Shown here: in pieces, positions 23,642 to 38,593 of the stretch | How positions within the stretch are numbered: the first letter of the stretch is position 1 | Layout of the letters: each line of letters begins with the position of its first letter | Origin: Flavobacterium enshiense | Lineage (GTDB): Bacteria > Bacteroidota > Bacteroidia > Flavobacteriales > Flavobacteriaceae | Assembly (NCBI RefSeq): GCF_022836875.1 | Contig: NZ_CP090376.1 | Span: 2,108,001 to 2,172,000 of the forward strand | Reading direction: 5' to 3' | Length of the DNA: 64,000 nt | Translations under genes and position numbers: made by a program | Notes under the pieces: model-generated | The model's input: the letters and a program-made list of their open reading frames with translations, nothing else | Told to the model about the DNA's origin: nothing | Databases searched by the model: none

Positions 23642-24928
23642 TTGAGAGTTTCAGTTTTTAAACCGATTGCAGCGCCGGATTTGTTCAAAGCCAAACTATT
23701 GGCCTGGGCGCAGCAATTCAGAGAAATCGTTTTTCTGGACAGCAACAATTACCCGCAACATTACGGAAGTTATGATTGTGTTTTGGCCTGTGATGCTTTT
23801 ACTTCCATAAAAACAGATTATCACAATGCTTTTGAAGATTTAAAGCAATATCAGCAGCAAGCTAAAGATTGGCTTTTTGGCTATTTGTCGTACGATTTAA
23901 AAAACGACACTGAAGATTTGAAGTCTCAGAATTTTGATGGCCTGCATTTTCCGGATTTGTTTTTCTTTCAGCCAAAGAAACTTTTCCTGTTGAAAGGGAA
24001 TGAATTGGAAATCTGTTATCTGAACATGTGTGATGATGAATTGGAAGATGATTTTGTAAAAATAGTCGAAAGGGAAGAGGAAAAAGGGATAAGTCAGTCA
24101 TCAGTAACTATTCAGCAGCGTATTTCAAGAGAAAGTTATCTTGAAAAAGTAGGTGAAATGCTCAAGCACATTCATCGCGGGGATATTTATGAGGCAAATT
24201 TCTGCATGGAATTCTTTGCCGAAAACGCCCAAATCAATCCATTTGAAATTTATGAAAAACTAAATGCCATTTCGGAACCTCCGTTCGCGGTATTTTTTAA
24301 GAACAACACCAACTATTTGCTTTCAGCTTCGCCGGAGCGTTATCTCCGCAAGGAAGGTCTTAAAGTTATTTCTCAACCCATAAAAGGTACGGCAAAACGA
24401 GTTTTTGATTCGGAAATGGATGAACAGTCCAAAACAGAATTGTCTCAAAATCCCAAAGAACGTTCAGAGAATATCATGATAGTCGATTTGGTTCGCAATG
24501 ATTTGTCTCATACCGCTACAAAAGGTTCCGTTCAGGTAGAAGAACTTTGTGGTATTTATACGTTTAAACAAGTGCACCAAATGATTTCGACCGTGGTTTC
24601 CGAGGTTAAGGAATCGACATCTCCTTTGGAAATCATCAAAACAACTTTTCCTATGGGAAGTATGACCGGAGCTCCAAAAATTTCGGCTATGAAAATCATT
24701 GAAGAACTAGAGGAAACCAAACGCGGTTTATACAGTGGGGCAGTGGGGTATTTCACCCCAAACAACGATTTCGATTTCAATGTGGTGATCCGAAGTATTT
24801 TGTACAATTCCAAGGAGAAATATGTTTCGTTTTCCGTGGGAAGTGCTATTACGGCAGAATCCAAACCGGAAAGTGAATACGAGGAATGCCTGTTGAAGGC
24901 TAAAGCGATGAGGGAAGTGTTGAGTTGA
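23642..24928 (+). CDS. pabB: Aminodeoxychorismate synthase component I
   Basis: A 428-residue chorismate-binding enzyme that makes 4-amino-4-deoxychorismate for folate. The motif PIKGTAKR (246-253) carries Lys248; this Lys is characteristic of PabB, whereas anthranilate synthase TrpE has Ala (PIAGT). Other conserved blocks are SASPERYL, ENIMIVDLVRNDL, FPMGSMTGAPK and VGSAITAES. The start is TTG at 23642; no upstream in-frame ATG gives a better N-terminus, and the first residues align with the family as I know it. No pabA amidotransferase is adjacent. The stop codon is the first base contact of a repeat-flanked four-helix-bundle element. Confidence 0.88.
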   Translation: MRVSVFKPIAAPDLFKAKLLAWAQQFREIVFLDSNNYPQHYGSYDCVLACDAFTSIKTDYHNAFEDLKQYQQQAKDWLFGYLSYDLKNDTEDLKSQNFDGLHFPDLFFFQPKKLFLLKGNELEICYLNMCDDELEDDFVKIVEREEEKGISQSSVTIQQRISRESYLEKVGEMLKHIHRGDIYEANFCMEFFAENAQINPFEIYEKLNAISEPPFAVFFKNNTNYLLSASPERYLRKEGLKVISQPIKGTAKRVFDSEMDEQSKTELSQNPKERSENIMIVDLVRNDLSHTATKGSVQVEELCGIYTFKQVHQMISTVVSEVKESTSPLEIIKTTFPMGSMTGAPKISAMKIIEELEETKRGLYSGAVGYFTPNNDFDFNVVIRSILYNSKEKYVSFSVGSAITAESKPESEYEECLLKAKAMREVLS

Positions 24929-25012
24929 AAGGGATAAGGGAAAAGCGAAAAGCGAAAAGGGATCAGGGAAAAGAAGGAAGGGAGAAGAAGAGAACAAGAA
25001 ATAAATTTTAAA
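24928..25012 (+). repeat. Left (5') short-oligomer repeat flank of four-helix-bundle element 1
   Basis: A purine-only tract built from GGGATAAGGG, AAAAGCG and GAAGGGAG-like oligomers begins inside the pabB stop codon. AAAGGGATAAGGG at 24928-24940 is the exact reverse complement of 25380-25392 beyond the gene. Confidence 0.85.
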
Positions 25013-25024
25013 TTATATACGCCA
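25012..25024 (+). promoter_or_regulatory. Conserved 13-bp leader of four-helix-bundle element 1
   Basis: ATTATATACGCCA directly precedes and overlaps the ATG. The same 13 bases occur at 38523-38535 (minus) just before the second four-helix-bundle frame. Its role, perhaps as promoter, translation or element-end signal, is unknown. Confidence 0.55.
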
Positions 25025-25374
25025 TGAACAGTTATAGAGATTTGATAGTTTGGAAGAAGTCGATGTTGTTAGTGACTTCAATATATAAATTAGCAAGTAA
25101 ATTTCCCGATGACGAAAAGTTTGGGTTAATATCACAAATTAAAAGAAGTGCTGTTTCAATCCCTTCAAATATAGCTGAAGGATATGGAAGAAATTACAGG
25201 AAAGATTATTCAAGATTTCTTCAAATTTCAAAAGGGTCACTTTTTGAAAATCAAACACAATTAGAAATTGCAGCAAATCTTTCATTTCTAAATGAAGAAG
25301 AATTAAAAGAAATTAAGGAACTTTCTATAGAAGTAGAAAAAATGCTAAATTCGTTAATTAAAAAAATGGAGTAG
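25024..25374 (+). CDS. Four-helix-bundle protein (S23 intervening-sequence family), element 1
   Basis: A 116-residue all-helical protein of the TIGR02436 family, also found inside 23S rRNA intervening sequences and related to the Avd accessory protein of diversity-generating retroelements. The signature helix is QIKRSAVSIPSNIAEGYGR (about 39-57). The N-terminal YRDLIVWKKSM and the Arg/Lys-rich KDYSRFLQISKGS strip are typical; the pentameric barrel of this family binds nucleic acid. It is flanked by inverted short-oligomer repeats and lies between pabB and tilS, reading the same way. No reverse transcriptase or rRNA is near. Its function in protein-coding surroundings is not established. Confidence 0.88.
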   Translation: MNSYRDLIVWKKSMLLVTSIYKLASKFPDDEKFGLISQIKRSAVSIPSNIAEGYGRNYRKDYSRFLQISKGSLFENQTQLEIAANLSFLNEEELKEIKELSIEVEKMLNSLIKKME

Positions 25375-25379
25375 GCTTA

Positions 25380-25412
25380 CCCTTATCCCTTTTAGCTTAT
25401 CCCTTTTTCCTA
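25380..25412 (+). repeat. Right (3') inverted flank of four-helix-bundle element 1
   Basis: CCCTTATCCCTTTTAGC followed by TTATCCCTTTTTCC is the pyrimidine complement of the left flank. It ends 4 bp before the tilS start codon. It includes the perfect 13-bp inverted partner of 24928-24940. Confidence 0.85.
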
Positions 25413-25416
25413 TAAA

Positions 25417-26721
25417 ATGCTTCAAAAATTACAAAATCATCTGAATAAAGACCTTCCTTTCTTAAAAGGAAAAAAACTCCTTTTGGCTGTTAGCGGAGGT
25501 ATCGACAGTATGGTTTTGGTTCATCTTTTACATCAGTTACAATTTGATGTTTCGGTTGCGCATTGCAATTTTAATTTAAGACGTGATGAGAGTAATGGCG
25601 ACGAAGAATTTGTAAAATCATTTTGCAAAAATTTAAACATTGGTTTTTTTGTAAATAATTTTGATACAAAAAGATATGCTGATTTACATAAACTGTCTAT
25701 TCAGGTAGCTGCACGACAGCTTCGATATAACTGGTTTAATGAATTACTGGAAAAAGAAGGCTTTGATTATTTGCTAACAGCACATCATTTAGACGATTCC
25801 ATCGAAACGTTTTTAATCAATTTTACGAGAGGAACGGGCTTGGACGGATTAACCGGAATACCACAGCAAAATGATAAGATTATACGTCCGTTTTTGATTT
25901 TTACACGCGAAGAAATTGAAAATTACTCCAAAGAAAATCAAATAGAGTGGCGGGAAGATAGTAGTAATGTGTCAGACAAATATCTGCGCAACAAACTCCG
26001 CCACAAAGTGATTCCTATTTTAAAAGAACTGAATCCCGGTTTTTCAGATTCCTTTTTACAAACAATCGAAAATCTACAGCAATCGGAATCGATGATTGAT
26101 GACGCTTCACGGATTGTTTACCGAAAAGTGGTGGAGGATGTTGATGATCAGAAGAGAATAAATCTTTCGAAATTAATGGTTTTACCTAATTATCAGGCGT
26201 ATTTGTATCAATGGCTTAAGCCTTTCGGGTTTAAGGCCTGGAAAGATATTTATGATTTGGTTGAGGCACAATCCGGGAAACAGGTTTTTTCGGAACGGTA
26301 CCGACTGCTGAAAGACCGTGACACTCTCATTTTAACGGAAAAAAAAGAATTTGAAAAGGAAGTTTATGCTGTTTATGAAGAGGCTGAAAACAGTAAAATT
26401 CCATTGAAAATATCAGTTTGTGACAAAGAAGATATTGCTTACGGTAACAAAGACATTATCTTTGTTGATAAAGATACGTTAAAGTTTCCTTTAGAATTTC
26501 GCAAATGGGAAGAAGGTGATTATTTTTACCCCTTCGGAATTACCGGAAAGAAAAAGCTCAGCAAGTATTTTAAAGATGAAAAATTCTCGCTGATTGAAAA
26601 AGAAAATACGTGGCTTTTATGTTCTGAAAATCTGGTGGTTTGGTTGGTTGGAAAACGAGCCGACAGACGATTTTCAGTTAATGAAAAGACACAAACTATT
26701 ATAAAAATTGAATTAAAATAA
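25417..26721 (+). CDS. tilS: tRNA(Ile)-lysidine synthetase
   Basis: A 434-residue enzyme that converts cytidine-34 of tRNA-Ile(CAU) to lysidine using ATP and lysine, an essential step for AUA decoding. The ATP-pyrophosphatase loop SGGIDS is at residues 26-31, followed by AHCNFNLR, TAHHLDDSIETFLI and the RPFL motif. C-terminal substrate-binding domains contain the conserved RKWEEGDYFYP and GKKKLSKYFKDEK. Its stop overlaps the dsbD start by one base (TAATG), so both are co-translated. Confidence 0.95.
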   Translation: MLQKLQNHLNKDLPFLKGKKLLLAVSGGIDSMVLVHLLHQLQFDVSVAHCNFNLRRDESNGDEEFVKSFCKNLNIGFFVNNFDTKRYADLHKLSIQVAARQLRYNWFNELLEKEGFDYLLTAHHLDDSIETFLINFTRGTGLDGLTGIPQQNDKIIRPFLIFTREEIENYSKENQIEWREDSSNVSDKYLRNKLRHKVIPILKELNPGFSDSFLQTIENLQQSESMIDDASRIVYRKVVEDVDDQKRINLSKLMVLPNYQAYLYQWLKPFGFKAWKDIYDLVEAQSGKQVFSERYRLLKDRDTLILTEKKEFEKEVYAVYEEAENSKIPLKISVCDKEDIAYGNKDIIFVDKDTLKFPLEFRKWEEGDYFYPFGITGKKKLSKYFKDEKFSLIEKENTWLLCSENLVVWLVGKRADRRFSVNEKTQTIIKIELK

Positions 26722-37410: not shown

Positions 37411-38100
37411 TTAGATACTTCTCCAAACCACATCATTTGGGACAGAGGCAATAATTTCTAAAATTTCCTTGCTTACGGGATGAGTGAAAACTAATTTTCT
37501 GGCATGAAGATGTATACCGCCATCAGGGTTGCTTCGGTCTGAACCATATTTCAAATCGCCTTTTATAGGGCAGCCAATGGCAGAAAGCTGACTGCGGATC
37601 TGATGGTGTCTTCCGGTATGCAGATTGATTTCTAAAGCATAATAATTATCCAGTTTTTTAATGATTTTATAATCCAAACTGGCTTTTTTGCTATCCGGAA
37701 CTTCTTTTATATGTGCCTTTGAGGTATTGTTTTTAGGGTTTCGTTTCAGAAAATGAACAAGAACATCTTCTGTTTTTGGAGGTTGGTTTTTGACTACGGC
37801 CCAATAGGTTTTTTGGGTTTCCCTTTTGCTGAACATCTCATTCAGTCGCGCCAAAGCTTTCGAAGTTCTGGCAAAAACAACGATTCCGGTTGTCGGTCGG
37901 TCCAATCGGTGGACAACGCCTAAAAAAACCTCTCCGGGTTTATTATATTTTTCCTTGATATATTCTTTGACAATATCCGACAATGGTTTGTCGCCGGTTT
38001 TATCACCTTGTACAATATCTCCAACACGTTTATTGACAATAATGATGTGATTGTCTTCGTGAAGGATTTGAAGATTGTCTTTTGTGGAAAGAATTTTCAT
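37411..38100 (-). CDS. RluA-family pseudouridine synthase
   Basis: A 229-residue enzyme with the catalytic Asp67 in HRLDRPTTGIVVFA, and LHTGRHHQIR and GDLKYG motifs. It lacks an N-terminal S4 domain, as in the short RluA/RluC-like group. It isomerises a uridine in rRNA or tRNA, but the site cannot be predicted. Its start codon abuts the right flank of four-helix-bundle element 2, so the element lies between it and panB. Confidence 0.9.
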   Translation of the reverse strand: MKILSTKDNLQILHEDNHIIIVNKRVGDIVQGDKTGDKPLSDIVKEYIKEKYNKPGEVFLGVVHRLDRPTTGIVVFARTSKALARLNEMFSKRETQKTYWAVVKNQPPKTEDVLVHFLKRNPKNNTSKAHIKEVPDSKKASLDYKIIKKLDNYYALEINLHTGRHHQIRSQLSAIGCPIKGDLKYGSDRSNPDGGIHLHARKLVFTHPVSKEILEIIASVPNDVVWRSI

Positions 38101-38161
38101 TTAGACTGCTTAGATTTTTAGACTTCTTAGATTGTTAGATGATCAGACTGACTTAGATTTT
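38101..38161 (-). repeat. 3' inverted flank of four-helix-bundle element 2
   Basis: On the plus strand it is a run of eight related 8-9-mers (TTAGACTGC, TTAGATTT, TTAGACTTC, TTAGATTG and so on). 38145-38157 (AGACTGACTTAGA) is the perfect inverted partner of 38579-38591. The tract fills the space between the element gene and the rluA start. Confidence 0.85.
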
Positions 38162-38515
38162 TTAGATTTTAAGTGTAGAACGGAATTTTGAAATCATTTT
38201 TATAATTTCATTAAGTTGATTAGATAACAATACTAATTTTTCTGAATCAATAAAACCTAAATCGGAAGGAATTATAAGTTGTGTTTCGATTTCATATGCA
38301 GAACCTATGGCAATTTCCAAAAACCTTGAGAAATCTTTGTTTGAATTTCGGGAAGAGCCTTCAGCTATGTTGGAAGGAATAGAAACGGACGCTCTTCTTA
38401 ATTGGTTGGTAAGACCAAATTTTTCTTCATTCGGAAAAGAGGCAGTGATGGAGTAAATGTCTGAGCAAAATACCCTGCTTTTTTTCCAAATACCTAATTC
38501 TTTAAATTGATGCAT
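38162..38515 (-). CDS. Four-helix-bundle protein (S23 intervening-sequence family), element 2
   Basis: A 117-residue member of the same TIGR02436 family as 25024-25374, with signature QLRRASVSIPSNIAEGSSR and matching N-terminal ELGIWKKSRVFCSDIY. The start at 38515 aligns with the family; an in-frame ATG at 38548 lies upstream of the shared leader and is less likely. Roughly half the residues differ from element 1, so the two are not a recent copy. It lies between panB and the pseudouridine synthase gene, in the same direction, enclosed by inverted TTAGA-type repeats. Role unknown; nucleic acid binding is expected. Confidence 0.88.
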   Translation of the reverse strand: MHQFKELGIWKKSRVFCSDIYSITASFPNEEKFGLTNQLRRASVSIPSNIAEGSSRNSNKDFSRFLEIAIGSAYEIETQLIIPSDLGFIDSEKLVLLSNQLNEIIKMISKFRSTLKI

Positions 38516-38522
38516 ATAATTT

Positions 38523-38535
38523 TGGCGTATATAAT
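38523..38535 (-). promoter_or_regulatory. Conserved 13-bp leader of four-helix-bundle element 2
   Basis: On the minus strand this reads ATTATATACGCCA, identical to 25012-25024, and ends 7 bp before the chosen start codon. Confidence 0.55.
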
Positions 38536-38593
38536 GTCTAATAATCAAAGTAATCTAACAAGCTAAAGTTCTAAGGAGTCTAAGTCAGTCTAA
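38536..38593 (-). repeat. 5' inverted flank of four-helix-bundle element 2
   Basis: On the minus strand this reads TTAGACTGAC, TTAGACTCC, TTAGAACTT, TAGCTTG, TTAGATTAC and so on. It begins one base after the panB stop codon and contains the 13-bp inverted partner at 38579-38591. Confidence 0.85.

Follow-up and report, generated by a model that had tools for sequence, protein, structure and literature searches.

A four-helix-bundle (S23) gene enclosed by mirrored heptad arrays in operon gaps of Flavobacterium and other bacteria

In the 64,000-nucleotide stretch of Flavobacterium enshiense DNA analysed here (the window), the gap between pabB and tilS holds a small gene of the S23 / four helix bundle family between short repeats that mirror each other. 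Is this arrangement peculiar to one gap, and if it is not, what holds gene and repeats together? A preliminary description had taken the locus for a counterpart, placed in an mRNA, of the intervening sequences (IVS) of 23S rRNA, and the pabB-tilS gap does contain an element of that build, an S23 gene with inverted arms. Judged from its sequence, the window element is one instance of a widespread element of operon gaps, in which an S23 gene lies within inverted arrays of a 7-8-nt unit. The element is real, recurrent and rule-bound, and may represent a so far unrecognised kind of tiny genetic element that resides in messenger RNAs; its excision from them would follow by analogy. Most surprising are the strand polarity of the arms and the sharing of one unit by S23 kin at different sites.

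The element at pabB-tilS and its second copy

The upstream host gene, pabB (aminodeoxychorismate synthase component I; 23642-24928, + strand), was identified as an open reading frame with profile matches, and the last base of its TGA stop codon (24926-24928) is the first base of the left array (24928-24983, + strand). This array consists of 7-nt units (AAAGGGA TAAGGGA AAAGCGA AAAGCGA AAAGGGA TCAGGGA and so on) with its best-paired stretch at 24937-24971, and is followed by a leader up to the start codon (24984-25023, + strand) that contains TTATATACGCC at 25013-25023. The S23 gene (25024-25374, + strand) encodes 116 amino acids and is intact, scoring 131 bits against TIGR02436 (cut-off 24) and 139 bits against PF05635 (cut-off 33.8); the Xanthomonas S23 structure 2gsc (XCC0516) matches its protein at 2e-25. 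The right array (25377-25412, + strand) is inverted and of the same unit family (TTACCC TTATCCC TTTTAGC TTATCCC TTTTTCC), and the downstream host gene tilS (25417-26721, + strand; open reading frame and profile matches) starts 4 bases past it. The coordinates agree with the earlier statement that the flanks start in the pabB stop codon and end 4 bases before tilS, and AAAGGGATAAGGG (24928-24940) and CCCTTATCCCTTT (25380-25392), which had been described as perfectly complementary, are exact complements.

The best-listed pairing of the arms joins 24937-24971 with 25377-25411 over 35 nt at 83% complementarity, and the same arrays pair in other registers too (e.g. 37 nt, 78%). RNA folding of 24915-25420 gave z = -2.7, with 2 of 100 shuffles as good, and the single arms show hardly any self-folding (-2.3 and 0 kcal/mol). 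When flank complementarity was scored for 54 genes of the window, the two S23 genes came out on top with 25 and 23, the next gene reaching 15. The arrays are tandem 7-nt units in intergenic DNA, as in heptameric intergenic (STRR-like) repeats, and a period-7 intergenic array was detected in the window at 24921-24975. Besides the S23 frame, no open reading frame of at least 80 amino acids lies wholly within 24928-25412 on either strand, hence there is no transposase inside. No Rfam family reached its gathering score (the one match, E = 0.97, lies inside tilS), and a phage search gave no match. The element is placed between two protein genes, pabB and tilS, and not in a helix of 23S rRNA.

The genome has two S23 matches in all. 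The other one, absent from the preliminary description, lies 13 kb off in the same window, between panB (identified by TIGR00222) and a downstream pseudouridine synthase gene (37411-38100, PF00849). Just after panB comes the paired part of its left array (38536-38583, - strand; unit TTAGACT/CTTAGA), then an S23 gene of 117 amino acids (38162-38515, - strand) and a right array of AGTCTAA units (38101-38148, - strand) that ends at the ATG of the next gene. Its arms are mirrored as in the first copy but built from a different unit (the TTAGACT family), while the leader word TTATATACGCC is common to both copies (25013-25023 and 38524-38534).

Relatives have empty sites at both pabB-tilS and panB-rluA. 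The 30 pabB-tilS loci, the own genome included, comprised 5 with S23, 17 with a short empty gap and 8 of other kinds; the site is empty in the nearest relative by TilS (90%). The pabB tail is identical in close filled and empty species, and the insert abuts the stop codon. All 17 short empty gaps carry TAnnTTTG, a promoter word of the Bacteroidetes, ahead of tilS, versus 0 of the 5 filled ones and 2 of the 8 others (short empty versus filled, Fisher 4e-5), and it is absent before tilS from the filled window site. At tilS, which makes lysidine in tRNA and is held essential in bacteria, the insert occupies the place of the promoter word of the empty sites. In the pabB-tilS copy of one genome (G009) S23 is, by eye, seemingly frameshifted and the arrays are retained. 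At panB-rluA, 30 loci (own included) were divided into 14 filled, 14 empty and 2 other; by eye, the empty gaps L294, L312, L315 and L321 carry a heptad array without the gene, and the S23 element at the filled site L314 has an arm unit of about 15 nt rather than 7-8 nt. In a comparison by eye of filled and empty sites at two gaps, where the arrays blur the borders, no target-site duplication was seen.

Recurrence, polarity and placement of the arms

The S23 family is present in 293 of 299 genomes of the genus. The loci taken were the best genus matches, with 109 of the 125 matches in 14 complete genomes, 30 tilS loci and one tandem pair, plus the 80 best among 545 confirmed loci from named GTDB species, which include Nitrospirae, Verrucomicrobia, Planctomycetes and Deltaproteobacteria. 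The resulting 236 matches were reduced to 231 without duplicates and to 219 without short or ambiguous flanks and weak hits. As control, 1095 positions with equal spacing were taken from these loci, and their 99th percentile served as the arm threshold. Left-right complementarity exceeded it in 160 of the 219 S23 copies, compared with 8.4% for swapped arms and with 42 of 768 control genes (800 kb, two relatives), two of these 42 being S23 genes themselves. Arms are about 13 times commoner at S23 genes than at other genes, and the earlier proposal passed the refutation test it had set, that complementary flanks might be no commoner here than elsewhere. The design recurs with S23 in several phyla, with differing units.

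The view that the arms are amplified short units was borne out by their period of 7-8 nt, which is echoed at 14-15, none of the other periods from 4 to 13 being prominent; identity at lags 7 and 8 in the arms of the 160 copies was 0.47 and 0.50, versus 0.27 and 0.26 in the control. Within reach of the pairing alignment an arm has a median of 4.6 units, and the element a median size of about 490 nt (94 copies). Direct arms only were found in 9 of 219 copies, and 50 of 219 had neither inverted nor direct arms above threshold. On a cyanobacterial plasmid (L323), S23 likewise has long heptamer arrays (AAAAGCT / AAAAGCC) on both sides that are direct and not inverted. At L251 the whole S23 element is present as a tandem duplicate with a period of about 545 nt and direct arrays of an 8-nt unit, which suggests recombination between arrays.

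The sense strand of the left arm has G > C in 148 of the 160 armed copies, and 117 of these 160 left arms have AG repeated two or more times at a spacing of 7-8 nt. The purine-only left arm noted previously is correct for the pabB-tilS copy and does not hold as a rule, the rule being G > C. In the best-paired stretch of 765 other genes, G > C occurred in 362 and phased AG in 2, and the 40 other genes that pair as well as the S23 arms gave 17 with G > C, 19 with C > G and 0 with phased AG. The left array starts at a median of 0 nt past the upstream stop (quartiles -7 and 6), in line with the suggestion of insertion after stop codons, and the right array ends at a median of 7 nt ahead of the next start (quartiles 2 and 14).

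The complete-genome set contained 96 copies, both window copies included, of which 70 are armed and 26 are not. Between two co-directional genes lie 67 of the 70 armed Flavobacterium copies against a background of 403 of 513 junctions (p = 3e-11, assuming that the copies are independent); the 70 copies form 30 site groups, 27 of them wholly co-directional. Since 23 of the 26 copies without arms are likewise between co-directional genes, this placement is a trait of the S23 genes and not of the arms. The S23 protein is, by comparison of coding sequences, under purifying selection: the median dN/dS was 0.095 for same-site pairs (648 pairs, dS median 1.2) and 0.115 for different-site pairs (21 pairs, dS median 1.9), both rough values from overlapping pairs. 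TAnnTTTG occurs in 9 of 94 S23 leaders, near the shuffled rate (6.5%), and before 40 of 183 other genes, for which reason a promoter belonging to S23 itself was rejected. As the word is not in excess in the leader, we infer transcription of S23 by read-through from the host operon.

Inheritance of the repeat unit and arrays away from S23 genes

The proposal that arms are made de novo was not borne out in its original form by comparison of the copies, as S23 kin at least 75% identical share their unit across sites (17 pairs). For these different-site pairs, drawn from 4 families, the median normalised arm similarity was 1.0, versus 0.39 in the 1285 pairs under 35% S23 identity. The Mantel correlation between S23 and arm similarity was 0.28 (0 of 2000 permutations), and unit sharing is limited to pairs above about 55-65% S23 identity. 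A smooth relation of unit to S23 distance was rejected, since S23 identity and arm similarity showed no rank correlation across the 1773 different-site pairs that had a match (rho 0.03, p 0.15). A unit common to close S23 kin at different sites implies that the arms move with the gene and then drift, and are not made fresh at every insertion.

What keeps the two arms alike was approached through their mismatches and their changes. Among the stem mismatches of the 160 copies, A.C (212) outnumbered G.U (153), as in the swapped control (A.C 1041, G.U 940), and per copy 44 lean to G.U, 68 to A.C and 48 are tied. This lack of a G.U excess means that a sense-RNA stem is not what selection visibly preserves, and such a stem was rejected as the sole constraint. 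Comparison of related species showed changes to the same base in both arms at about five times the expected frequency (11, 20 and 57 parallel changes in register, versus 2.0, 4.2 and 10.5 expected). One unit out of register the excess is nearly as large (8, 14 and 52 versus 2.5, 4.6 and 10.6), so strict pair-by-pair covariation was rejected as well. Parallel change is likewise seen between neighbouring units of a single arm (ratios 2.9, 1.6 and 4.7), and single-arm changes are more numerous than paired ones. The two arms of a copy share a unit class at the site ahead of the gene starting MINLFNTHIE (rho 0.90, 46 copies), an agreement given little weight because the S23 tree needs only about three label changes, and which was accordingly rejected as a case of many concerted changes; own arms at this site score 22.6 versus 17.1 for arms swapped within the site (45 copies). 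The arms are thus kept alike as unit families, and only loosely base by base. With arms alike by unit family, protein recognition or DNA homogenisation would be no worse a fit than an RNA stem.

Arrays were also surveyed away from S23 genes, in five genomes at 400 kb each. Three S23-rich genomes had 14, 8 and 9 intergenic period-7/8 arrays per 400 kb and two S23-free genomes 2 and 0, that is 31 arrays in 1.2 Mb versus 2 in 0.8 Mb, a difference that we treat as a lead, five genomes being too few, several arrays being copies within one tandem block, and one S23-free genome having a higher GC (0.477) and less intergenic DNA. Other periods gave at most two arrays, except for ten period-11 arrays in 400 kb of one S23-free genome (G219, loci L354-L373). 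Units away from S23 were compared with the arms of S23 copies in their own genome; 18 of 30 were above the other-genome mean and 5 of 30 were best overall; a match of remote arrays to same-genome arms is weak at 18/30 and was not retained. At L269 (G240:C1, about 354150-355600) a gene starting MKFDLITKDPNSKARAGKITTDHGVIETPIFMPVGT, which we take to be tRNA-guanine transglycosylase, has hairpin-like heptad arrays on both sides and no S23. At L381-L382 (G284:C1, about 159600-166300) a segment of more than 6 kb with several genes, and with no S23 match listed, has mutually inverted GTTTCAG arrays at both ends.

Candidate explanations and known relatives

The explanation that we tentatively put first, at a little under an even chance, is an mRNA-dwelling relative of the 23S rRNA IVS, whose transcription, pairing and array binding are posited, with RNase III excision added by analogy. 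The element would be inherited, and occasionally moved, as one piece and, with no evident promoter of its own, would be transcribed within the host operon. The G-rich left arm and the C-rich right arm could then pair across the S23 cistron into a long irregular duplex, and a double-strand nuclease such as RNase III would cut the element from the polycistronic mRNA, as in 23S rRNA, after which the pabB and tilS messages would be separate; S23, which has a pentamer-forming relative, may bind its own arrays. In its favour are the complementary arms (160 of 219 copies, versus 42 of 768 genes) with their period and strand polarity, the co-directional placement, the scarcity of the promoter word in S23 leaders and its absence from filled tilS sites, the low dN/dS, the unit shared at different sites, the near lack of self-folding in the arms and the build of the Coxiella IVS. 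The 50 copies without arms and the 9 direct-only ones count against this explanation, as do the remote heptad arrays without S23, the equally frequent co-directional placement of copies without arms, the nil rank correlation over all different-site pairs and the parallel changes that are nearly as frequent one unit out of register; with no G.U excess in the aligned stems, selection on the sense stem alone is disfavoured. An interaction of S23 with its own arrays as cognate sites fits about equally well. S23 might, with no RNA excision, recognise its own unit in double-stranded DNA or on one RNA strand, an account we take seriously while thinking it somewhat improbable; the inverted arrays would then be putative cognate sites, alike because the same protein must fit both, and could label the element's ends so that it is moved, replicated or protected. 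The unit common to close S23 kin at different sites, agreement of the arms in unit rather than in strict register, the mismatches without G.U excess, the direct orientation tolerated in 9 copies, the median of 4.6 units per arm (near a pentamer) and the 31 arrays in 1.2 Mb of S23-rich DNA versus 2 in 0.8 Mb of S23-free DNA all argue for it. It is weakened by the nil rank correlation over all different-site pairs, by the remote units' lack of a clear match to same-genome arms (18/30; 5/30 best) and by the make-up of the survey itself, namely five genomes of 400 kb each, several arrays from one tandem block and an S23-free comparison genome with a GC of 0.477 and less intergenic DNA.

That the arms are a functionless mutational by-product, the heptads growing by slippage and being mirrored by template switching at stalled forks in gaps that S23 genes merely tolerate, is improbable. 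Arrays do occur without S23, neighbouring units in one arm change in parallel too and single-arm changes outnumber paired ones, as this account would have it; however, it has to contend with arms about 13 times commoner round S23 than round other genes, with a strand polarity absent from the 40 other well-paired genes (17 G > C, 19 C > G) and with the unit shared by close kin at different sites. Very unlikely, and disfavoured already, is a regulatory hairpin or terminator of the ordinary kind in an operon gap, the small gene trapped inside being unrelated to it: the arms are able to pair and are situated between genes, and the filled tilS sites are without the promoter word, but the arms enclose about 400 nt with a conserved gene and are found again with S23 in several phyla, built from different units, and no Rfam family reached its gathering score. 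A broader reading, possible though doubtful, would make S23 elements a minimal self-marking class, a pentameric protein with a coevolving end repeat code. Their termini would be a unit family legible to their own protein and not a fixed sequence, and S23 would wrap about five heptads per arm, either as DNA or as the G-rich, AG-phased RNA of the left arm, for which the ring protein TRAP is a model of RNA wrapping. The heptamer arrays of Bacteroidota, Cyanobacteria and Xanthomonas would be S23 sites or their relics, and the rRNA intervening sequence the special case that landed in 23S rRNA.

The nearest kin of the element is the 23S IVS of Coxiella, which in the excerpted text of PMC4990558 comprises an S23 ORF and a 28-bp terminal stem, is excised by RNase III and measures 428 nt, with GACAGAT heptamers ahead of the ORF; the same excerpt gives Xanthomonas S23 as a homopentamer and S23 proteins as without known function. 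On that account, both have an S23 ORF, inverted termini that form one long stem, heptads before the ORF and a similar size; the Coxiella IVS lies in an rRNA helix, whereas our element lies in the gap between operon protein genes. S23 is under purifying selection here, in contrast to the coding segment of the Coxiella IVS, called expendable in the excerpt, and the unit varies between S23 families here, unlike in 23S IVS. Excerpts of PMC4692102 describe heptameric intergenic repeats in Xanthomonas and Nostoc, with inverted pairs in Xanthomonas (70 and 75 cases), and an excerpt of PMC4679880 TAACTGA repeats in Beggiatoaceae, Cyanobacteria and Bacteroidetes. As far as these excerpts go, they resemble ours as period-7 intergenic arrays, inverted pairs included for Xanthomonas, and differ in that our arrays bracket one gene and have a unit common within its protein families. 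X. campestris, denoted XCC in excerpts of PMC4990558 and PMC3936711, has heptamer arrays according to that of PMC4692102 and also encodes an S23 protein of known structure. In the available main texts of PMC4692102 and PMC4679880 the terms 'four helix' and 'intervening' are absent and no S23 link was found; in the open-licence literature, by titles and abstract starts, nothing joins operon-gap S23 genes to heptad arms, and other work could exist.

Avd, the accessory protein of diversity-generating retroelements, is a distant match (NCBIfam AVD 23.9 bits, Pfam bAvd 33.4 bits), but the window S23 is below the cut-offs of both families (80 bits for AVD), and our element has flanking arrays where those retroelements have a template repeat. 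The window's genome gave no match to RVT_1. Of the 21 genomes searched, 18 bear S23; 11 of these had such a match and 7 (the window's own included) had none. A reverse transcriptase in trans as a need for persistence was rejected on these 7, though one may have helped movement in the past. MITE/REP-like elements are short and have terminal inverted repeats. The S23 element is likewise short, with inverted ends and no recognised recombinase inside, yet its ends are arrays of a variable unit and not one fixed terminal sequence, and it carries a conserved gene, in most cases reading in the same direction as the adjacent genes.

In the excerpts of PMC4692102 and PMC4679880, the heptamer arrays of Xanthomonas, Nostoc, Beggiatoaceae and Bacteroidetes have no known maker or reader, and tying S23 to heptad arrays gives each a testable partner. 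If the element is excised from mRNA, it would define a bacterial messenger class in which one cistron can be removed; should S23 prove to read its array, it would be a protein with a changing sequence code, many natural variants of which are directly comparable.

In cyanobacterial plasmids, 7 of the 12 S23 loci examined (of 32 plasmid records hit) pass the score threshold of the main set. At L322, L323 and L332, S23 lies between cas genes with heptad arrays alongside, in the order cas6-S23-cas4 twice and cas10-S23-cmr3 family gene once; a position of the S23 family between cas genes is already noted in the excerpt of PMC3936711.
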